A stretch of 37,997 bases of DNA. Source: Oscillospiraceae bacterium. GTDB lineage: Bacteria; Bacillota; Clostridia; Oscillospirales; Ruminococcaceae. The notes below the pieces were generated by a model that ran no database searches, had not been told where the DNA came from, and worked only from the letters and a program-made list of their open reading frames with translations. How positions within the stretch are numbered: position 1 is the stretch's first letter; every line of letters begins with the position of its first letter. Where the stretch lies: assembly GCA_017435045.1 (NCBI GenBank), contig JAFSFT010000018.1:1-37997 (forward strand). Direction: 5' to 3'. Shown here piece by piece: positions 20,959 to 30,691 of the stretch. Position numbers and translations under genes: made by a program.

Positions 20959-21342
20959 ATGTTGGAGCATTTGTTACATGATTATCTGCCTGTGCTCATA
21001 CACATTATTGAGATTATAGGTATTTTTATTATAGTTACAGGTGCGTTAAAAGCATTTAAGGATTATCTTATAGCCTTTTTCAAAGACGGCAACACATCGG
21101 AGCTTCGCCACGACCTTGGCACAGCTATGGTTACCGGGCTTGAATTTAAAATGGCTGCAGAAATCCTCAGAACTGTTATTGTAAGAACATGGGAAGAAGT
21201 TGCCATGCTGGGTGCTATTGTAGTGCTGCGTGAAATTCTGTTCTTCTTCATCAACAAGGATATTAAGGAACACAATAAACAACACTGTGAAGAAGCATCT
21301 GAAAACAAAAAAATAACAGGCATTAAAATTGAAAGAAAATAA
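20959..21342 (+). CDS. DUF1622 family membrane protein
   Basis: The 127-residue protein matches DUF1622. It has three hydrophobic segments (about 10-30, 57-75 as a weaker one, and 82-98), the conserved central block FKMAAEILRTVIVRTWEEVAMLGAIVVLREIL, and a Lys-rich cytoplasmic tail with a His/Cys pair. The biochemical role of the family is unknown. GAGGT precedes the ATG and it probably rides on the aldolase transcript. A hairpin separates it from the antiporter operon. Confidence 0.88.
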   Translation: MLEHLLHDYLPVLIHIIEIIGIFIIVTGALKAFKDYLIAFFKDGNTSELRHDLGTAMVTGLEFKMAAEILRTVIVRTWEEVAMLGAIVVLREILFFFINKDIKEHNKQHCEEASENKKITGIKIERK

Positions 21343-21489: not shown

Positions 21490-21963
21490 ATGTACATTTT
21501 ATTACTGTTGTTCTGGATAATTCTCAACGGTAAAATCACATTGGAGATTTTTGCTTTCGGTGTTGTTTTTGCTGCTGCGATTTTCTGGTTTATGTGCAAA
21601 TTTCTCGATTACTCACCAAGATATGAACTTTGTGTGGCAAGAAATATAATCTGGATTCTTACATACTTTGTAGTGCTGATTATCGAGATATTCAAATCTG
21701 CCATTGCGGTGTATAAACGTGTATACAGTAAAAAAATTGAAATTCAGCCACAGATGGTGTTTTTTGATGTTGATATAGAAAGCGAATTCCTCCGCTTTGT
21801 TTTGGCAAACTCAATTACACTTACACCGGGTACAATTACTGTGGATGTTACTGACAATCATTTTTGCGTTCATGCATTGGACTATACACTTGCAGAAGGC
21901 ATAGAAAATTCTGTTTTTATAAAAATGCTTAAAATTATGGAGGAAAACTGCTGTGGCTGTTAA
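21490..21963 (+). CDS. mrpE: Mrp/Mbh-type cation antiporter subunit E (MnhE/MbhA-like)
   Basis: The 157-residue protein opens the antiporter operon. Two or three N-terminal hydrophobic segments (1-40, 50-70) precede a small cytoplasmic domain with the family signature LANSITLTPGTITVDV and VHALD. Subunit E packs at the end of the Mrp/MBH sodium module. GGAG precedes the ATG. The C-terminus overlaps the next gene by 11 bases. Confidence 0.93.
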   Translation: MYILLLLFWIILNGKITLEIFAFGVVFAAAIFWFMCKFLDYSPRYELCVARNIIWILTYFVVLIIEIFKSAIAVYKRVYSKKIEIQPQMVFFDVDIESEFLRFVLANSITLTPGTITVDVTDNHFCVHALDYTLAEGIENSVFIKMLKIMEENCCGC

Positions 21964-22294
21964 AATTTATGACGGTTTTGTTATCGTTATGCTCGTAGTA
22001 CTGGCACTTGTGGTGTTCGGTTACTTTATCAGAACAATTCTCGGCCCTCATTTTTCTGACAGGCTTCTTGCAGTAAACAGTATCAGCACAGTTGTAATGC
22101 TGTTTATCTGTTTTATCGCAGTAATGCAGGGCGAAAACTATATTATTGATATTGCTCTTATCTATGCAGTGCTGGGCTTTGTTTCTGTAATTATTCTTTG
22201 TAAAGCATATCTCAGAAGTCACCACAAAGAAAAGGCAAATGACCTTAAAAACTTAAAAGAAAAGGTAAACGAAGTAGAAGGAGGGGCAGAGTAA
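21953..22294 (+). CDS. mrpF: Mrp/Mbh-type antiporter subunit F (MnhF/MbhB-like)
   Basis: The 113-residue protein has three helices and the MrpF core GPHFSDRLLAVNSISTVVML followed by IDIALIYAVLGFVSVIIL. In Mrp structures the Asp in this segment belongs to the sodium path. A charged Lys/Glu-rich tail (about 82-113) extends beyond the usual ~90 residues. It starts with GTG, 8 bases after a GGAGGAAAA stretch lying within the end of the previous gene. Confidence 0.92.
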   Translation: MAVKIYDGFVIVMLVVLALVVFGYFIRTILGPHFSDRLLAVNSISTVVMLFICFIAVMQGENYIIDIALIYAVLGFVSVIILCKAYLRSHHKEKANDLKNLKEKVNEVEGGAE

Positions 22295-22295
22295 T

Positions 22296-22619
22296 ATGAT
22301 AAGACTTATTCTTTCCGCACTTTTTATCTTCGCAGGTGTTAATGTAATTATCACCGCTTTGGTAGGCAACTACCGATTCAGCTATGTGCTCAACCGTATG
22401 CAGGTTGGTGCAACAGCTGACACAATGGGTGCTATACTTGTTCTCATTGGTCTTATAATCAAAATCGGCATCAATATGATAAGCATAAAAATGATTATTA
22501 TGATTATCTTCTTCTGGGTTGCAAGCCCTGTGTGCTCACACTTCCTTGCAAGAACAGAAGCAATTGCCAACGAAGATATTCTTGATGAATGTGAGGTAGT
22601 AAGACATGATAACATTTGA
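22296..22619 (+). CDS. mrpG: Mrp/Mbh-type antiporter subunit G (MnhG/MbhC-like)
   Basis: The 107-residue, three-helix protein has the MrpG signature LNRMQVGATADTMGAILVLIGLII and ends with ASPVCSHFLARTEA. It starts one base after subunit F with GGAGGGG upstream. The last 14 bases overlap the following gene. Confidence 0.92.
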   Translation: MIRLILSALFIFAGVNVIITALVGNYRFSYVLNRMQVGATADTMGAILVLIGLIIKIGINMISIKMIIMIIFFWVASPVCSHFLARTEAIANEDILDECEVVRHDNI

Positions 22620-22866
22620 GATTATTCTGCTTATATTCCTCATAATATGCGCTATTGCTACATGCTTTGCAAAGAATCTTTTTTCTACTGTACTGATTTT
22701 TGAATCTTACAGTGCAATTATGTGTGTTATATGGCTGCTGCTGCGTTCTCCGGACCTTGCAATTACAGAAGCAGCAGTAGGTGCAGGTGTAACAGGTGTG
22801 CTGTTCTACATAACACTTAAAAATGTAAACAAGCTTAAAGAGGAGGATGAACCTGATGAAGAATAA
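22606..22866 (+). CDS. MbhD-like subunit (DUF4040)
   Basis: The 86-residue, three-helix protein carries the DUF4040/MbhD motif RSPDLAITEAAVGAGVTGVLFYITL. In conventional Mrp this segment is part of the C-terminal extension of MrpA; here, as in archaeal membrane-bound hydrogenases (MbhD), it is a separate polypeptide. The acidic tail EEDEPDEE is encoded in the sequence that supplies the ribosome site of the next gene. Confidence 0.88.
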   Translation: MITFEIILLIFLIICAIATCFAKNLFSTVLIFESYSAIMCVIWLLLRSPDLAITEAAVGAGVTGVLFYITLKNVNKLKEEDEPDEE

Positions 22867-23755
22867 CAGATACATCACCGCTTTCAAGCGTTTTATGGAC
22901 GGCGAAACTTCTTTTGAACCAAAAATTAAGGAAACAGAAGCTCGCAGAGAGTCCACCCACAAAGAAAAATCTATTTCAGAAAGATATGCGGTATGGCACG
23001 ATAAAAACGGTTACAAGCTGTTCAAACGTGCATATGTTGCGATAGGATGTCTTATTGCAGGCTGTATTATAGCAACACTTCTGCTTACAGTTTCATACCT
23101 TCCGCCATATGGCGAAGCAGGCAATCCTGTAAACAATGAAGTTACAGAAAGATACATCGAAAAAGGTATGGAAGAAACAGGTGCAGTTAACATCGTTGCA
23201 GGTGTTATCCTTGACTACCGTGCATTCGATACATTCGGCGAAAGCTGTGTACTTTTTGTTGCTGCATGCAGTGTTATGATGTTGATGAAAAAGGACAAAA
23301 AGGGCAAGAAGGAAGAAGAACTTCAGAACTACAACCCAAAACGTGACCCTGTTATCAAACAGCTGGCTATGGTTTTGGTACCGTTCAACCTTATGCTTGG
23401 TATTTACGTTGTATTCAACGGACATCTTTCACCGGGCGGCGGCTTTTCCGGCGGTGCAATTATGGGCGCAAGCCTTATTCTCTTCTCATCCGCTTACGGT
23501 TACAGAAGAGTAAGACCAATCTTTACAGAAAAACTTATAAAAATTGTAACTTTTGTTTCTCTTACATTCTATGCAGTTGCAAAAGGTTACTCTTTCTTCA
23601 CAGGCGCAAACCACCTGCACTCAATTATCAATCCGGGTACACCTGGCAGAATTATGTCCGCAGGTATCATCCTTCCGCTTAACATAGCTGTTGGTTTTGT
23701 TGTTACAATGACAATGTACAGCTTCTACGCATTATTCACAAAGGAGGAAATTTAA
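22856..23755 (+). CDS. Fused MbhE-like and MrpB-like antiporter subunit
   Basis: The 299-residue protein joins two subunits. After a soluble N-terminal tail (about 1-50) comes a membrane segment and the MbhE block ending VAGVILDYRAFDTFGESCVLFVAA. A Lys-rich linker (about 145-165) then leads to the MrpB domain with FNGHLSPGGGFSGGAIMGASLIL and four helices. In many operons these are two proteins (MbhE, MbhF), or MbhE belongs to MrpA. I start at ATG 22856, 8 bases after AGGAGG; the ATG at 22847 abuts the ribosome site. Confidence 0.88.
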   Translation: MKNNRYITAFKRFMDGETSFEPKIKETEARRESTHKEKSISERYAVWHDKNGYKLFKRAYVAIGCLIAGCIIATLLLTVSYLPPYGEAGNPVNNEVTERYIEKGMEETGAVNIVAGVILDYRAFDTFGESCVLFVAACSVMMLMKKDKKGKKEEELQNYNPKRDPVIKQLAMVLVPFNLMLGIYVVFNGHLSPGGGFSGGAIMGASLILFSSAYGYRRVRPIFTEKLIKIVTFVSLTFYAVAKGYSFFTGANHLHSIINPGTPGRIMSAGIILPLNIAVGFVVTMTMYSFYALFTKEEI

Positions 23756-23756
23756 A

Positions 23757-24134
23757 ATGGGTCCTAATTTATTTGTGAACTACTACGAAGCTACAGCGAT
23801 GATTCTGTTCGGTATCGGATTTACAACAATGCTGCTTCACCCTAATCTTATCAAAAAGATTATCGGTCTTAACATTATGGATACAGCTATCTACCTTTTC
23901 CTTGCAGCAAAAGGCTATATCCACGGCAAGCTTGCACCAATCATCGTAAACGGTGATCTGGCAATGGAAACATACATCAACCCAATCCCAAGCAGCCTTG
24001 TTCTTACAGGTATCGTTGTTTCGGTAAGTGTAACAGCCATCTCTCTGTCTCTTGTACAGAAACTTTACAGAAAATACAATACTCTCGACATAGATGAAAT
24101 TATGTTCAAAGCAGGACAGGAGGAAGAAGAATAA
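23757..24134 (+). CDS. mrpC: Mrp/Mbh-type antiporter subunit C (MnhC/MbhG-like, NuoK homologue)
   Basis: The 125-residue protein has three helices and the NuoK/MrpC pattern ILFGIGFTTMLLHPNLIKKIIGLNIMDTAIYLFLAA, then DPIP-like NPIPSSLVLTGIVVSVSVTAISLSLV. It links the small-subunit part to the antiporter-like subunits. GGAGG precedes the start; one base separates it from the previous gene. Confidence 0.93.
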   Translation: MGPNLFVNYYEATAMILFGIGFTTMLLHPNLIKKIIGLNIMDTAIYLFLAAKGYIHGKLAPIIVNGDLAMETYINPIPSSLVLTGIVVSVSVTAISLSLVQKLYRKYNTLDIDEIMFKAGQEEEE

Positions 24135-24135
24135 T

Positions 24136-25620
24136 ATGCCATTTATAGCTAACTTCCCTTTCTTCTGTATACTGATTACAATGTTTGGCGGTATCCTTAC
24201 ATCCATGGTAAACGGTAAATGGGCATTCCGCATCAACACAGTAATCATTACAGCAACACTTGTTCTCAACGGCACTTTGCTGATGTTTTTAATCAAAGAC
24301 CCACAGTACTTTACATTTATGATGGGTCACTATCCTGCTCCTTGGGGTAACGAAATCCGTTTCGGTCCTCTTGAAGCACTTATGGGCACAGTATTCTCCT
24401 TTGTAACACTTTGCTCCCTTATTTCCGGCAAAGATGAGGTTTTCCACGATGTAAAACCAAGAAATCTTCATTATTTTTACATAATGATTAACCTCTTGCT
24501 TTCATCCCTCTTTGCGCTTATCTACACAAACGACTTGTTTACAGCATACGTATTTGTTGAAATCAACACAATCTGTGCATGTGCAATCGTTATGGCAAAA
24601 GAAAACGGCAAAACCCTTGCGGCAACACTCAGATATCTTATTATGAGCTTGCTCGGTTCCGGTTTGTTCCTGCTTTCAATCGTACTTACATACGATATTA
24701 CAGGTCAGCTTCTTATGGTTCCTGCACACGAAGCATTCCAGAGAATTTTTGCAACAGGTGAATATCAGATTCCTCTCACAATCATTCTCGGTCTTGTATG
24801 TGTTGCAATGGCAATCAAAAGTGCGCTTTTCCCATTCCACACATGGCTCAGCCACGCACACGGCAGCGCAACAACAGCATCCAGTGCTATCCTTTCCGGT
24901 CTTGTTCTCAAAGGCTATATCATTATGCTCATCAAGATTATCGTTAGGGTAGTAGGTCTTGAAGTTGTTGTTCAGCTCAAAGCGGTTAACATTCTCTTTG
25001 TGATGGCTGTTCTGGCAATGATTATCGGTTCTCTTGATGCTATCAAGGAAAACCATATCAAACGTATGATTGCTTTTTCCTCTGTTGCACAGATGGGTTA
25101 CATCTACATGGGTATCGGTCTTGGCAATATGGCGGGTCTTATCGTAGCATGTTTCCACATCATTGTACACGCAATCACAAAACCAATGCTCTTTAGCTCC
25201 GCAGGCGGTCTTGCATCAGCAAGCGGACACAAAAAGGATTTTGCAAGCCTTAAGGGTGCGGCATACCGCAATCCTATCGCTGCAGCAGCATTTCTCATTG
25301 GCAGTCTGTCTATGATTGGTATTCCGTTCTTTGCAGGCTTCGGTGCAAAATACTACCTGTCCATGGCAGCTATCGGTATGGGTGCAAAAATGTGGGTTGT
25401 ACTTTTTGCACTTGCAGTAAGTACAGTGCTCAACGCAATCTACTACATCAGAGTTATCTCTATCATCTTCAGCAAAACAGAGGGTGAAGTTGTTGAAAGA
25501 CACAAAAATGCTCCATCCTATACCTTTGCAATGACAGTGTTTATTATAGTTAATGTTTTACTCGGCCTTTTCTACCAGCCTGTAATGGATGTAATTACAG
25601 TTGGTATGGGTCTGTTGTAA
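24136..25620 (+). CDS. Antiporter-like subunit 1 (MrpD/MbhH-like, NuoL/M/N superfamily)
   Basis: The 494-residue protein has about 14 helices. The ion-path residues of this superfamily are present: TM5 Glu142 (YVFVEINT), TM7 Lys228 (AIKSALFPFHTWL), TM8 Lys259 (SGLVLKGY) and TM12 Lys405 (GFGAKYYL). The loop SHAHGSATTASSAILSG is a His/Ala variant of the common A(H/Y)xxAPxxASA. The ATG at 24136 follows AGGAGG; longer forms start inside the previous gene without a site. Its position after C suggests the MbhH/MrpD place in the complex. Confidence 0.92.
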   Translation: MPFIANFPFFCILITMFGGILTSMVNGKWAFRINTVIITATLVLNGTLLMFLIKDPQYFTFMMGHYPAPWGNEIRFGPLEALMGTVFSFVTLCSLISGKDEVFHDVKPRNLHYFYIMINLLLSSLFALIYTNDLFTAYVFVEINTICACAIVMAKENGKTLAATLRYLIMSLLGSGLFLLSIVLTYDITGQLLMVPAHEAFQRIFATGEYQIPLTIILGLVCVAMAIKSALFPFHTWLSHAHGSATTASSAILSGLVLKGYIIMLIKIIVRVVGLEVVVQLKAVNILFVMAVLAMIIGSLDAIKENHIKRMIAFSSVAQMGYIYMGIGLGNMAGLIVACFHIIVHAITKPMLFSSAGGLASASGHKKDFASLKGAAYRNPIAAAAFLIGSLSMIGIPFFAGFGAKYYLSMAAIGMGAKMWVVLFALAVSTVLNAIYYIRVISIIFSKTEGEVVERHKNAPSYTFAMTVFIIVNVLLGLFYQPVMDVITVGMGLL

Positions 25621-25636
25621 GGAAAGGACGGTAGAT

Positions 25637-27109
25637 ATGGAATTTTTAACTGTATTCGCAATTATCCTGCCAATCCTTTCCGGTGCAGGACTGCTGTTCT
25701 CCAAAATAGAGGAGTACAAAGAGGTTAACAACTTCTCCACAGCGGTTATCGCTGTTACAGCCGCTGTAACAGTGCTTTCCAACATAGTAAACTTTGGCAA
25801 AAGCTGTTCTGTGTTACGTCTGCCAATGGGCATGACACTGGGCTTTTCCGTAGATGCACTTGCAGCAATTTTTTCCACAATGTTTGTGGCAGTATGGCTG
25901 CTTGTAAATATCTACAGCCGTGAATATTTCAAGACACAGCCTAATGTAAAACGCTTTATGGGCTTTTACCTTATGGCTATGGGTGCGGTTATCGGCGTTG
26001 CATATGCAGAAAACCCATTTACATTCTATACATTCTTTGAACTTATGAGTCTGACAAGCTTTGTGTTTGTACTCAGCAATCAGTCCAGAAACAGCATTGC
26101 AGCAGCCAAAAAGTATATTTATTATTCCATCTTTGGTGCTCTCTGCGGCCTTGTTGCAATTATGGCATTCTATGGCAGCGACCTTATCGGAACAAAAAGC
26201 TTTGTTGCAGGCGGCAGCCTTGTAAGAGAACTTGGCGGCAGAATGCCAATGGTTGCGGTTATCGTGTTTATTGCAATTATAGGCTTCAGCTGTAAGGCAG
26301 GTATGTTCCCGCTGCACTCCTGGATACCATACGCTTATGTACAGTCTCCTGCACCTGCAAGTGCTGTACTCAGCGGTGCAATTGCAAAAACAGGTGTCCT
26401 TGCAATTATCAGAATTGTATATTTTGTTGTTGGTGCAGATGTGCTGCGTGGCAGCTGGGTGCAGTTTGCGGTGCTTGCACTTTCCACAGCGACAATCTTT
26501 ATGGGCTCCATGATGGCTTATAAGGAAAAACTTTTCCAGCGCCGTGTGGCATACTCCAGTGTCAGCCAGGTTTCCTATGCTGTATTTGGTGTTATGACAC
26601 TTTCAGGCCTTGGTCTTGCAGGTGCAATCCTGCAGATTATCTTCCATGCTTTGTCCAAAAATGTGCTGTTCCTCACATCAGGTGCAGTTACATACAGGAC
26701 AGGCAGAGCATATGTGGGCGAATTTACAGGTCTTGGCAAGGCAATGCCAAAAACCTTTGCTCTTTTCACACTTGCAGGTATGTCCCTTGCAGGTGTACCG
26801 CTGACAGGCGGTTTTATCAGCAAATACTATCTGGCACAGGCAGCACTCGGAAACAATTTCGATCTGCTTGGCAAAATCGGCTTTGTGGCAATTATGGTTT
26901 CCGCATTGCTTACAGCAGGCTACATCTGGTCTGTAAGCAGCAAGGCTCTCTTTGCACACAAGGACCTTGAAATTACAGAAAACTGCGATATCAATGTTAC
27001 AATGTTTGTTCCTATGCTTATCCTTACAGCACTTATCTTTGTAATAGGCGTATGCCCATCAGCTGTAATGGAAGTTATCAACAGCGTTGTCGCATCGGTT
27101 GGCTTGTAA
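25637..27109 (+). CDS. Antiporter-like subunit 2 (NuoL/M/N superfamily)
   Basis: The 490-residue, ~14-helix protein retains TM5 Glu135 (YTFFELMSLTSF), TM7 Lys220 (CKAGMFPLHSWIP), TM8 Lys251 (SGAIAKTGVL) and TM12 Lys396 (GGFISKYYLA). The YVQSPAPASAVLSG loop is canonical. It is clearly different in sequence from its three neighbours, so it is not a recent duplicate. The start at 25637 follows AAAGGACGG. Confidence 0.92.
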   Translation: MEFLTVFAIILPILSGAGLLFSKIEEYKEVNNFSTAVIAVTAAVTVLSNIVNFGKSCSVLRLPMGMTLGFSVDALAAIFSTMFVAVWLLVNIYSREYFKTQPNVKRFMGFYLMAMGAVIGVAYAENPFTFYTFFELMSLTSFVFVLSNQSRNSIAAAKKYIYYSIFGALCGLVAIMAFYGSDLIGTKSFVAGGSLVRELGGRMPMVAVIVFIAIIGFSCKAGMFPLHSWIPYAYVQSPAPASAVLSGAIAKTGVLAIIRIVYFVVGADVLRGSWVQFAVLALSTATIFMGSMMAYKEKLFQRRVAYSSVSQVSYAVFGVMTLSGLGLAGAILQIIFHALSKNVLFLTSGAVTYRTGRAYVGEFTGLGKAMPKTFALFTLAGMSLAGVPLTGGFISKYYLAQAALGNNFDLLGKIGFVAIMVSALLTAGYIWSVSSKALFAHKDLEITENCDINVTMFVPMLILTALIFVIGVCPSAVMEVINSVVASVGL

Positions 27110-27124
27110 GGAGGGGACAGACGT

Positions 27125-28594
27125 ATGAATAATTATCTTGTTTTACTGCCTGTACTGCTTCCTCTGGCATTGGGCTATGCATCATTGCATATAAGATTTG
27201 AAAATGATGAAAAACGCACAAAATACTCAATAATCTGCACAGCAATCAACAGCGTAATCGTATTTGCGATGCTTTTTGCAATGAGAGAAACATCTGTAAA
27301 TGTATTCAGCTTTACAGACACTCTCAACATCAGATTTAAAATTGACGGTCTCGGCTGTGTTTTTGCAGGTATGGTAAGCTTTTTGTGGCCTCTTGCCACA
27401 ATTTACGCTTCCGAATATATGAAGCACGAAGGCAAAATGCAGAAGTTCTTTGCGTTTTACCTTATGACATTTGGTGTTACTGTAGGTCTTGCGTTCAGTG
27501 CAAATATGCTTACAATGTATCTTTGCTACGAAGCACTTACATTTATCACACTTCCGTTGGTTATGCACTCAATGGACAAACGTGCAGAGTATGCAGGTAA
27601 AAAATACCTTATCTACTCTGTTGGCGGTGCAAGCCTTTCCTTTGTAGGCATGATGCTTATGATGTTCTACAACGGCAGCATTGAGTTCGCATACGGCGGT
27701 GTTGTAACAGTAAACGAACCTGTTCTGCTTGTTGCATATCTGCTTATGTTCCTTGGCTTCGGCGTAAAAGCAGCAGTATTCCCGCTTCACGGCTGGCTGC
27801 CTGCAGCTTCCGTTGCACCAACAACAGTTACAGCACTTCTTCACGCTGTTGCAGTTGTTAAAGCAGGTGTATTTGCAATTATGCGTACAACTTACTACTT
27901 CTTCGGCCCTGATTTCCTCAGAGGTACATGGGTACAGAACGTGGTAATGACAATGGCCATCATCACAGTGTGCTTCGGTTCCTGGTCTGCTGTAAGAAGC
28001 CGTCACCTCAAACGCCGTCTTGCTTATTCCACAGTAAGCCAGCTGGCATATATCGTATTCGGCATTACACTTATGACCGCGGACAGCTTTAAAGGCAGTA
28101 TGAGCCATATGCTGTTCCACGGTATTGTAAAGATTGTACTGTTCTACACAGCAGGTGCAATTCTCTATACAAACCACAAGGAATTTGTGGACGAAATTGA
28201 AGGTTTTGCACACAAGATGCCAAAAACCTTTGCTCTCTTTACAATTTCTTCTGTTTCCCTTATCGGTATTCCGCCGCTTGCAGGTTTCCTTTCCAAATTT
28301 ACACTTGCAACAGCAGCAGTAAGGGAAATGAGTGCAGAAAACATCCTGCCGTTCCTCGGTGTATGTGCACTGATGTTCTCTGCATTTATGACAGCAATTT
28401 ATCTTCTGGAAATTATCACAAAGGCATACTTCCCATCCAAAGGCTTTGATATGGAAAGCCTTGACCACGTTAAAGAAGCACCTGCAAAACTGTGGGGACC
28501 TATGGCGGTTATCACAGCCGTAATGGTTTCTGTAACATTCTGGGCAACACCTTTGTTCAGTTTCCTTGAAACAGTAGCGAAAGGAGTATTTTAA
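27125..28594 (+). CDS. Antiporter-like subunit 3 (NuoL/M/N superfamily)
   Basis: The 489-residue, ~14-helix protein retains TM5 Glu136 (LCYEALTFITLPLV), TM7 Lys215 (GVKAAVFPLHGWLP), TM8 His240 and Lys246 (ALLHAVAVVKAGVF), and TM12 Lys391 (GFLSKFTLA). The sequence ASVAPTTVTALLHAVAVVKAG is closest to the MrpA/NuoL-like type in this loop. AGGAGGGG precedes the start. It ends 2 bases before subunit 4. Confidence 0.92.
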   Translation: MNNYLVLLPVLLPLALGYASLHIRFENDEKRTKYSIICTAINSVIVFAMLFAMRETSVNVFSFTDTLNIRFKIDGLGCVFAGMVSFLWPLATIYASEYMKHEGKMQKFFAFYLMTFGVTVGLAFSANMLTMYLCYEALTFITLPLVMHSMDKRAEYAGKKYLIYSVGGASLSFVGMMLMMFYNGSIEFAYGGVVTVNEPVLLVAYLLMFLGFGVKAAVFPLHGWLPAASVAPTTVTALLHAVAVVKAGVFAIMRTTYYFFGPDFLRGTWVQNVVMTMAIITVCFGSWSAVRSRHLKRRLAYSTVSQLAYIVFGITLMTADSFKGSMSHMLFHGIVKIVLFYTAGAILYTNHKEFVDEIEGFAHKMPKTFALFTISSVSLIGIPPLAGFLSKFTLATAAVREMSAENILPFLGVCALMFSAFMTAIYLLEIITKAYFPSKGFDMESLDHVKEAPAKLWGPMAVITAVMVSVTFWATPLFSFLETVAKGVF

Positions 28595-28596
28595 TT

Positions 28597-30546
28597 ATGA
28601 ATGTTAGAATGATTCTTTTGCTTATGGTTTTTGTTCCTGTGCTTATGGGTTTTGTACCATTTGCGGTAAAGGACATCAAAAAACTTAACCTTATGATGGT
28701 TGCAGTTTCCATTGCTGAATTTGCAGCCTGCCTCTATATGATGTTCAACCTTTCAATGGTTGACAGTCAGGTGGTTTCACTCACCTGGTTTGCAGGCGTG
28801 GGTGTAAACTTCAAAATCAACGGTTTTGGTATTCTCCAGGCAGTTGCAACCAGCCTTATCTGGATTGGTTCCAGCGTATTTTCTGATGAATACTTTGACC
28901 ACGCACCGCAGAATCTCAGAAGATATTACAGCTTCTGGGCAATCACATTCGGTGCAACACTGGGAATCTTCCTTGCAAATGACCTTTATACAGTGTTCAT
29001 CTTCTTTGAAGCTATGTCCTTTGCAAGCTATCCGCTGGTTGTTCACAATCAGGATAAAGATTCCATCGACGCAGGCAACAGCTATCTGTCTGTAGCGGTA
29101 ATCGGTGGTCTTGCAACACTTGGTGGTATCTTCTGGCTTACATCTGTTACAGGGACAGCAGTTATCGACGAACTCTCCCTTGCAGCAACAGCTTTTGAAA
29201 ATGAAAACGTACTCTTTATGGTTGCGTTCCTCATCTTCTTTGGTTTTGCAGCAAAAGCAGGTATGTTCCCGCTTAACGGCTGGCTGCCAAAAGCTCACCC
29301 TGCAGCACCTGCACCTGCCAGTGCCGCACTTTCCGGTATACTTATCAAAACAGGTGTGTTCGGTGCAATTGTGGTTACAAGCCGCATTATGAGAGGCAAC
29401 GAAAAATGGGCAATGTTTGTGCTTGTTATCGGTATACTCACAATGTTCCTTGGTGCACTGTGTGCATTTATGTCCACAAACCTTAAAGAAACTCTGGCAT
29501 ATTCTTCCATGTCACAGATTGGTTTTATCGTAATTGGTGTTGCAATGACACAGTTCCTTGGCGAACACGGTGCAATTGCAGCCTACGGCACAGTGCTGCA
29601 TATGATAAACCATACAATGATAAAACTTGTGCTCTTTACCTGTGCAGGTATTGTTTATCAGAACACACACAGCCTTAATCTGAACGAAATTCAGGGCTTC
29701 GGCAAAGGCAAAAAGGTGCTTACAGCCTGTTTTGGCACAGCAGCACTTGGTATTATGGGTGTTCCTTTCTTCAACGGTTACATCAGCAAAACTCTGCTCC
29801 ACGAAGGTATTGTGGAACATATCCACCTCCTTCACGAAGTACACGGTGCAACAGTTTTTTTCCAGTTTGCAGAAGTTATCTTCCTTGTAAGCGGCGGTTT
29901 TACAGTGGCATATATGACAAAACTGTTTATCTGCCTGTTTGTAAAAAATCCTGCAAAGGAATGGCATCTGCACAAGCCTTACGTTTCCAAACGTACCGCT
30001 GTTGTTATCAGTGCAGTTTCCGCACTTATCTTTGTGTTCGGTGCTTTGCCGCATCAGACACTTGATAAGCTTGCAGAACTCACAAGCGACTTTATGGGTG
30101 TTCACGCACTTGACCACGCTGTGCATTACTTCAGTTGGGTAAACCTCAAAGGTGCTGTAATCTCTCTTGCAATCGGTGCAGTGCTCTACTTTGCTGTTGC
30201 ACAGTTTACAGTTATCACAAAGGATAAAAAATACATTAATCCTTGGAACCAGAAGCTTACAGTGGAAAACCTTGTGTGGAGACCATTGGTGTTTACAGTT
30301 CTTCCGAATGTTCTCGGTTTTATCGGCCGTGTTATCGACAAGCTTCCTGAAATGGTACTGCTTATCATCCGCAAGCTGTTCTTTACGGATGCAAAGGTGC
30401 CTGTTACATTCTGGGAAGGCAAGAAGACAAAGGAAGAAGAGGGAATACCGGAGATGACATTCCGCATCACAGAAAGCCTTACATACAGCCTTTTGCTGTT
30501 TGGTCTTGGTCTTGTTGTAACGATTATCTATCTGTTTGTGGCTTAA
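28597..30546 (+). CDS. Antiporter-like subunit 4 with long C-terminal extension (NuoL/HyfB-like)
   Basis: The 649-residue protein has the usual 14-helix core with TM5 Glu138 (IFFEAMSFASYPLV), TM7 Lys220 (AAKAGMFPLNGWLP), TM8 Lys251 (SGILIKTGVFG) and TM12 Lys398 (NGYISKTLLHEG). About 150 extra residues follow: a further helix (LKGAVISLAIGAVLYFAVAQF is its region), a probable amphipathic segment (LGFIGRVIDKLPEMVLLIIR), a charged stretch and a final membrane anchor. That order resembles the lateral-helix extension of NuoL, MrpA and hydrogenase-4 subunit B, so it may be the distal subunit that clamps the others. It is the last gene of the operon. Confidence 0.92.
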   Translation: MNVRMILLLMVFVPVLMGFVPFAVKDIKKLNLMMVAVSIAEFAACLYMMFNLSMVDSQVVSLTWFAGVGVNFKINGFGILQAVATSLIWIGSSVFSDEYFDHAPQNLRRYYSFWAITFGATLGIFLANDLYTVFIFFEAMSFASYPLVVHNQDKDSIDAGNSYLSVAVIGGLATLGGIFWLTSVTGTAVIDELSLAATAFENENVLFMVAFLIFFGFAAKAGMFPLNGWLPKAHPAAPAPASAALSGILIKTGVFGAIVVTSRIMRGNEKWAMFVLVIGILTMFLGALCAFMSTNLKETLAYSSMSQIGFIVIGVAMTQFLGEHGAIAAYGTVLHMINHTMIKLVLFTCAGIVYQNTHSLNLNEIQGFGKGKKVLTACFGTAALGIMGVPFFNGYISKTLLHEGIVEHIHLLHEVHGATVFFQFAEVIFLVSGGFTVAYMTKLFICLFVKNPAKEWHLHKPYVSKRTAVVISAVSALIFVFGALPHQTLDKLAELTSDFMGVHALDHAVHYFSWVNLKGAVISLAIGAVLYFAVAQFTVITKDKKYINPWNQKLTVENLVWRPLVFTVLPNVLGFIGRVIDKLPEMVLLIIRKLFFTDAKVPVTFWEGKKTKEEEGIPEMTFRITESLTYSLLLFGLGLVVTIIYLFVA

Positions 30547-30604
30547 CAGAGTTATCTTTGGTATGCAGATATCCTGCAAGATAAATCAATAAAATAAAAA
30601 ACAA

Positions 30605-30657
30605 GGCTCCGTAAAGGGTGTTCTCTTATGTGTAACACCCTTTATACGGAGTCTTTT
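30605..30657. terminator. Rho-independent terminator of the Mrp-like operon, probably bidirectional
   Basis: An 18-bp stem GGCTCCGTAAAGGGTGTT paired with AACACCCTTTATACGGAGTC (2-base bulge) ends in TTTTTG on the plus strand. On the minus strand it is followed by TTGTTTTTTATTTT, so it can also end the converging S1-domain gene. Confidence 0.92.
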
Positions 30658-30691
30658 TGTGTTTAAGCAGATTTTTGTTCAATAAATAAAT

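Follow-up and report, generated by a model that had tools for sequence, protein, structure and literature searches.

A ten-gene Mrp-type operon with four antiporter-like subunits in an Oscillospiraceae bacterium, probably a stand-alone cation/proton antiporter

In the available text of PMC8415708, group 3 Mrp systems are outlined as those without a fused mrpA, in which mrpD stands alone, sometimes in several copies. The same text describes the stand-alone Mrp of Pyrococcus furiosus, mrpEFGBB'CD, which has the order E-F-G-(MbhD,MbhE)-B-C-D, no fused mrpA and no redox module. Its deletion points to Na+/H+ exchange, and Na+ uptake with H+ export under acid is reported there, whereas Bacillus-type Mrp is described in the accessible part of PMC7419157 as working in the opposite direction. 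Here we analysed a 37,997-nucleotide stretch of an Oscillospiraceae bacterium (contig JAFSFT010000018.1 of assembly GCA_017435045.1; the whole stretch is called the window), which carries an operon of ten genes at positions 21490-30546 on the + strand. This operon follows the P. furiosus order, but it has four antiporter-like subunits (D1-D4) where P. furiosus Mrp has one, and MbhE is fused to B, whereas MbhD is fused to MbhE in the archaeal system. We think it probable that its ten products assemble into a single stand-alone cation/proton antiporter of the Mrp type (CPA3, group 3).

An earlier note, made from the sequence alone, had described ten tightly packed genes ending at a strong terminator, and both parts of that description held. 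All ten open reading frames (ORFs) were found at their places, with intergenic gaps of -20 to +16 bases, in the order E-F-G-MbhD-(MbhE-MrpB fusion)-C-D1-D2-D3-D4, where D1-D4 are NuoL/M/N-like:

21490..21963, + strand: MrpE/MnhE subunit, 157 residues (PF01899, E 9e-31)
21953..22294, + strand: MrpF subunit, 113 residues (PF04066)
22296..22619, + strand: MrpG subunit, 107 residues (PF03334)
22606..22866, + strand: MbhD, 86 residues, first part of the MrpA C-terminal half (PF13244)
22847..23755, + strand: MbhE-MrpB fusion, 302 residues as listed, start probably at 22856 (PF20501, PF04039)
23757..24134, + strand: MrpC/NuoK subunit, 125 residues (PF00420)
24136..25620, + strand: D1 antiporter-like subunit, 494 residues; E142, K228, K259 and K405 counted from 24136 (PF00361)
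25637..27109, + strand: D2 antiporter-like subunit, 490 residues; E135, K220, K251 and K396 (PF00361)
27125..28594, + strand: D3 antiporter-like subunit, 489 residues; E136, K215, K246 and K391 (PF00361)
28597..30546, + strand: D4, MrpA-N/NuoL-like antiporter subunit, 649 residues; E138, K220, K251 and K398
30603..30658, + strand: intrinsic terminator, hairpin and T run (fold -29.2 kcal/mol, z -7.8)

The Pfam matches were MNHE, MrpF_PhaF, PhaG_MnhG_YufB, MbhD, MbhE with MnhB, Oxidored_q2 and four Proton_antipo_M. NCBIfam gave the same kinds, with none above its curated cut-off among the matches listed. Starts compatible with a Shine-Dalgarno sequence were found at 24136 (D1) and 25637 (D2), and probably at 22856 for the fusion. 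The terminator stem (30603-30655) with its T run closes the operon, and a simple terminator scan did not list it.

The operon unites E, F, G, B, C and antiporter-like D/A subunits, the set of an Mrp (CPA3) system, and it fits the outline of group 3. The Mrp systems of groups 1 and 2 (Bacillus, Dietzia, Vibrio) have the same functions, but there MrpA is a single protein and the antiporter-like subunits are two; no full-length mrpA or mrpA-B fusion ORF was found in the operon. The statement of the earlier note that MrpA is missing therefore stood for the single fused gene and failed for the protein, which D4, MbhD and MbhE together make up by domain and fold. The fold of D4 resembles that of NuoL or of the MrpA N-terminal half (its best solved match was MrpA, tied with NuoL), with TM15 (transmembrane helix 15) at 514-539, a lateral helix at 556-595 and a last helix at 619-648. 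Since the N-terminal NuoL-like part and the MbhD and MbhE domains are all present, MrpA is split rather than absent: D4 is its N-terminal half, and MbhD with MbhE its C-terminal half. In our subunit tree, three MrpA proteins of groups 1 and 2 grouped with E. coli NuoL, apart from D4. The membrane-bound hydrogenase (MBH) and sulfane reductase (MBS) of P. furiosus have the same small subunits, and according to the available text of PMC8415708 MBS shares the E+B fusion; its chain 6u8y_E aligned across both the MbhE and the B part of the fusion. However, these complexes have a hydrogenase or sulfane reductase arm and one or two antiporter-like subunits.

Next, we looked at the residues of the proton path. 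D1-D4 shared 25-33% identity pairwise and are therefore distinct proteins. The earlier note had assigned to each of them a Glu in TM5 and a Lys in each of TM7, TM8 and TM12. These residues occupied the same four alignment columns, which are shared with E. coli NuoL/M/N, HyfB/D/F and annotated MrpA/MrpD. At the level of sequence, then, the misalignment that the note had considered was not seen. Some of the references deviate from the pattern (for example, NuoM has Glu at TM12 and NuoL has Thr at TM8). We counted residues over distinct rows of the four-D type, with duplicate rows of one genome removed (L008/L064, L009/L052, L016/L101; L numbers denote loci). The key residues were kept in all 78 rows of D1 and all 85 of D2. 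In D4 the Lys residues were kept in 85/85 and the Glu in 84/85, the one gap being a split ORF. D3 kept the Glu and the TM7 and TM12 Lys in 91/91, while its TM8 residue was Lys in 77 rows and Asn in 14 (L037, L028, L068, L072 and 10 more loci). Given these counts, proton transfer looks feasible for all four D subunits, D3 being the least strictly conserved.

The small subunits also retain residues of the MBH cation site, namely MbhD E55, C D42 and F D66. MbhD E55, present in all 67 distinct rows, aligns with E69 of MBH MbhD, and MrpC D42 (72/72) with D37 of MbhG. MrpF kept D36 in 61/63 and D66 in 63/63 rows, and D128 of the MbhE-MrpB fusion was present in 68/69, the remaining row having a gap.

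To place the fourth subunit we used the three-D form of the operon, E-F-G-MbhD-MbhE-B-C-D1-M-D4, in which MbhE and B are separate genes. It was found in Peptoclostridium acidaminophilum and 13 further genomes (L015, L139-L148, L155, L156; the D1 frame of L139 is broken). A haloarchaeal (Natronorubrum) plasmid, L162:1224-9626, carries E-F-G-DUF4040-B-C-D-D-D, with one DUF4040 gene for MbhD/E. Its three antiporter-like genes and the genes before them follow the order of the Clostridia type. In a further variant (L157, L158), E-F-G-MbhD-MbhE-B-C-D1 is followed by two D4-like subunits.

The earlier note had asked for a phylogeny of the subunits. Our tree comprised 108 rows and 490 columns under LG+C20+F+G4, with MrpA references cut to their first 620 residues. 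D1, D2, D3 and D4 of 11 operons like that of the window (type I) each formed one clade (100/99 or better), and type I D1 and D4 grouped with D1 and D4 of the three-D operons. D2 and D3 were sisters (100/100) and jointly lay inside the M clade (100/99); their nearer placement with the L107/L140 group was weak (83/33). These results indicate that the four-D type I operon arose by duplication of M. On this sequence evidence, D2 and D3 are best described as duplicates of M, which held the middle place in an ancestor with three such subunits. Rhizobial MrpD1 and the second haloarchaeal D also fell within the M clade, and rhizobial MrpD2 paired with the third haloarchaeal D. A rhizobial plasmid complex I with MrpD1 and MrpD2 (L108:8923-15310) provides a link between green complex I and the three-D Mrp operons.

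In another family, two operons (type II; L149 in genome G277 and L150 in G201) have, between M and D4, an additional subunit X, and their D4 is lengthened before the lateral helix. X of L150 reads in two frames, and only its 419-residue piece was used. Approximately unbiased (AU) tests, framed after the tree had been seen, rejected a D2+X clade (p 0.0005) and a grouping of X with M of its own family (p 0.004). The better reading is that X represents a second, independent gain of a fourth subunit, although its exact place is unsure since it has a long branch and only two rows.

We then asked how widely the cassette is kept. When named genomes were scanned with a D3 alignment of 13 rows, at least 593 stretches came up, all encoding a relative, and the best 80 of these were taken as the loci set. 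In this survey of gene order, a kind of check that the earlier note had suggested, all ten genes stood in the same order in 53 of the 80 loci. Two more were alike except for an ORF-start overlap (L077) or a D3 in two frames (L090). Another 22 were incomplete because the contig or the fetched flank ended within them; among these, L064 also has D4 in two frames, and in L097 E-G were not recognised in the remaining 1.2 kb. The last three, labelled Synergistales/Synergistaceae, showed D3 without another D (L085, L100, L087), where the flank covered about 10 kb on both sides for L085 and only upstream for L100, and was too short to judge for L087. The lone D3-like gene of L085 (9932-11416) is flanked by an rRNA methylase gene on one side and sensor kinase genes on the other, with no other Mrp subunits recognised in the fetched stretch. 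The cassette is shared by many gut Clostridia. Labelled carriers include Hungatella hathewayi, Butyricicoccus pullicaecorum, a metagenome-assembled genome (MAG) of Clostridium symbiosum, further MAGs assigned to Blautia and Oscillibacter, and many assigned to Lachnospiraceae and Oscillospiraceae. A MAG labelled Muribaculum (L071), not a Clostridium, has the whole ten-gene cassette, for which a binning error is likely.

Within the window's order, 31 of 147 sampled genomes had a PF00361 match, and ten of these had four in tandem, with D1 cut in G072 and D4 in two frames in G056. G107 has all four D on two contigs, G121 and G126 have a partial operon at contig ends, G135 has a three-D operon, and G140 has a reduced locus that lacks D3. 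PF00361 had no match in the 8 other listed members of the window's own family. Across the phylum, 63/398 genomes had a D4 relative at E <= 1e-80, and only G875, G000 (the window's genome), G185 (checked, three-D) and G626 exceeded 590 bits with D4, the gene order of the new ones being unchecked.

The four D proteins might instead serve two functional units, for example D1+D4 as a classical pair and D2+D3 in a complex that uses the same central module as an alternative or under certain conditions. That D2 and D3 are mutual duplicates would suit such a division, as would the lone D3 of the Synergistales MAG (L085, no D1, D2 or D4 within ~10 kb), the retention of a D2-like protein and a shortened D4 without D3 in G140, and the TM15-TM16 span of type I D4, which is not elongated. 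However, C, MbhD, E/B, E, F and G are each present in one copy in the operon, and apart from the Synergistales rows none of the 80 loci with room on both sides lacked one of the four D. Since every small subunit is single, we favour one complex and regard two units as quite unlikely; the same holds for the two separate complexes that the earlier note had named as a possible refutation.

The earlier note had weighed two roles: a stand-alone antiporter of high stoichiometry, or a redox complex of which the operon would supply the membrane arm, with assembly in trans. We took the second to mean a complex linked to ferredoxin or NADH whose peripheral arm would be encoded elsewhere. This role draws support from the solved structures, among which an MBH or MBS chain was the best sequence match for each of the four D, and from the window's genome (1.88 Mb) being only 85.9% complete. 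In agreement with the note, there is no electron-transfer gene in the operon. NuoB (PF01058) and NuoH (PF00146), expected of MBH, Ech or complex I, had no match at E 0.1 in this 85.9% complete genome, where the NuoD family was not searched; exactly four PF00361 matches were present, all in this operon.

The search was extended to 17 genomes with all four D seen (ten four-in-tandem, G107, 4 type I and 2 type II). PF01058 was found in none of them, ten being 97-100% complete; NuoD/PF00346 and the hydrogenase large-subunit families were not searched. It was likewise not found in the partial G121 and G126, and in none of the 15 carrier-set genomes (11 with all four D, these two, the reduced G140 and the three-D G135). 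In a set of 27 genomes, PF01058 had no match in any of the checked four-D genomes (4 type I, 2 type II), nor in the probable four-D genomes G498, G159 and G195, whose gene order is unchecked. It was present in ten of the 27, namely 8 of 12 checked three-D genomes and the unchecked G455 and G452, and in none of these ten does a match share the operon's contig at a distance of 100 kb or less. By comparison, all five genomes with PF00361 genes elsewhere had PF01058 within ~3 kb of a PF00361 match.

Nor was there a conserved neighbour: among ORFs of at least 100 residues within 4 kb, the commonest flank family occurred in 7 of 86 loci (three genomes counted twice). In the window, a transaldolase-like gene and a DUF1622 gene lie upstream, and an S1-domain gene lies downstream on the opposite strand. 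The small DUF1622 protein (20959-21342) is encoded directly upstream of the operon on the same strand.

An RnfD-type gene (PF03116) in 14 of the 15 carrier-set genomes could also be taken for a redox partner. But PF03116 is near universal in the order (137/147 genomes), so its presence in carriers is uninformative, and we rejected an association with Rnf as background. The window's genome has a second NQR2/RnfD-type match, in a 430-residue frame at C40:18953-19834 besides one on contig C51, perhaps from an Nqr-like complex. In the same genome, the sole match for the ATP synthase c subunit fell below the cut-off and was taken as a chance match beside transporter-like ORFs, and anti-phage defence models gave no match for D1 and D4. 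With NuoB not found in the 17 four-D genomes, NuoH not found in the window's genome and no neighbour conserved, a redox membrane arm appears highly improbable, and the stand-alone reading of the earlier note is the one supported.

The length of the lateral helix gave mixed support for a longer array. In the available part of PMC9040806, the terminal subunit of complex I with extra pumps has a lateral-helix insertion of ~26 residues in Nitrospira and Manganitrophaceae, and none in rhizobia. For type I D4 the median TM15-TM16 span was 139 residues (83 distinct rows; 101 in the window), close to 134 in the three-D operons (n 11; 111-171 in the ten other than L148), and a divergent three-D group had 84-88 (n 3). 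Type II D4 spanned 197 and 215 residues versus 148 in the three-D sister L148, a comparison of two operons with a single sister. The modelled lateral helix had 40 residues in the window and 63 in Hungatella D4, there with falling confidence. These lengths support a longer array for type II and leave type I undecided.

In the stand-alone complex that we favour, C, MbhD, MbhE-B, E, F and G would form a central cation-handling module. D1 would adjoin it in the MrpD/NuoN position, D2 and D3 would come next, and D4 with its lateral helix would form the distal, MrpA-N/NuoL-like end. From the relation to Mrp and MBH we infer that protons would pass through the D subunits and a monovalent cation, probably Na+ and possibly K+, through the E/F/G/B/MbhD-E side. 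Charge along the central axis would couple the two paths without any redox partner. The fourth subunit itself traces back to duplication of the middle subunit in the three-subunit ancestor.

Such a complex may have a high H+/cation stoichiometry. When n protons are exchanged per cation, the cation-motive force at equilibrium equals n times the proton-motive force. A higher n would therefore allow a steep Na+ gradient to be built from a weak proton-motive force, or more H+ to be exported per Na+. We tentatively propose that the four D work in series in one complex, each passing one proton per cycle, so that three to four or more H+ would move per cation, compared with an ordinary Mrp ratio thought to be near 2 in the available part of PMC7419157. 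This arrangement would have evolved twice in anaerobic Clostridia, by duplication of the middle subunit in type I, and by a different subunit with a longer lateral-helix region in type II.

Several findings weigh against the stand-alone complex that we favour. H41 of MbhG is replaced by Tyr or Phe in 71/72 distinct rows. The position of MrpA E706 is Gly 59 in 67/67, with E55 one turn earlier. The TM8 Lys of D3 is lost in 14/91, type I and three-D spans do not differ, and the lateral helix of the window has 40 residues. G140 (L019:951-4611) holds a D1 fragment, a D2-like protein and a shortened D4, while D3 and the small subunits were not recognised; this locus is decayed or reduced and was excluded from the four-D count.

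The TM8 losses also bear on the view that there is one complex, in which the extra subunit is structural or regulatory and leaves the H+/cation ratio unchanged. Besides the Asn of D3, M of the three-D operons L015, L155 and L156 has Tyr at the residue matching the D3 TM8 Lys, so not every copy need be a full pump. However, all four D keep the TM5 Glu and the TM7 and TM12 Lys in every gap-free distinct row, and we hold such a passive role to be rather doubtful.

Extra antiporter-like subunits have been described elsewhere. A fourth or fifth was likewise added in the 2M complex I of Nitrospira, the green complex I of rhizobia and Complex_I_3 of Manganitrophaceae, where the extra pumps are argued, in the available text of PMC9040806, to raise the ions moved per turnover. 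Unlike the complex that we favour here, they are redox driven, and two of the three have the lateral-helix insertion. As described in the accessible part of PMC7784846, Ca. Nitrospira alkalitolerans has a group 3 Mrp locus with mrpA-G and two further mrpA/mrpD-like genes; it belongs to another phylum, also carries nhaB and bicA, and was compared by this description only. Ito's review, in the part available, mentions odd clusters of anaerobes and cyanobacteria with duplicated mrpD. On the question raised by the earlier note, whether this is a described type, group 3 Mrp is thus described in outline, whereas no account of a stand-alone four-D Mrp of Clostridia was found in the open-access literature, a weak negative as most subscription journals lie outside the search. 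The novelty is the four-D enlargement of group 3 Mrp; the group itself and the extra mrpA/D-like genes of Nitrospira were already known.

For complex I, MBH and Mrp, it has long been an open question how many ions each antiporter-like subunit moves. One family here supplies stand-alone complexes that lack a redox arm and have either three or four such subunits, which makes a natural test of the contribution of each subunit. In the lineage f48, one three-subunit and two four-subunit relatives stand side by side, and their H+/cation ratios would directly test one-ion-per-subunit models. The operon also brings to view an ion pump of gut Clostridia for which we found no study in the open-access literature.

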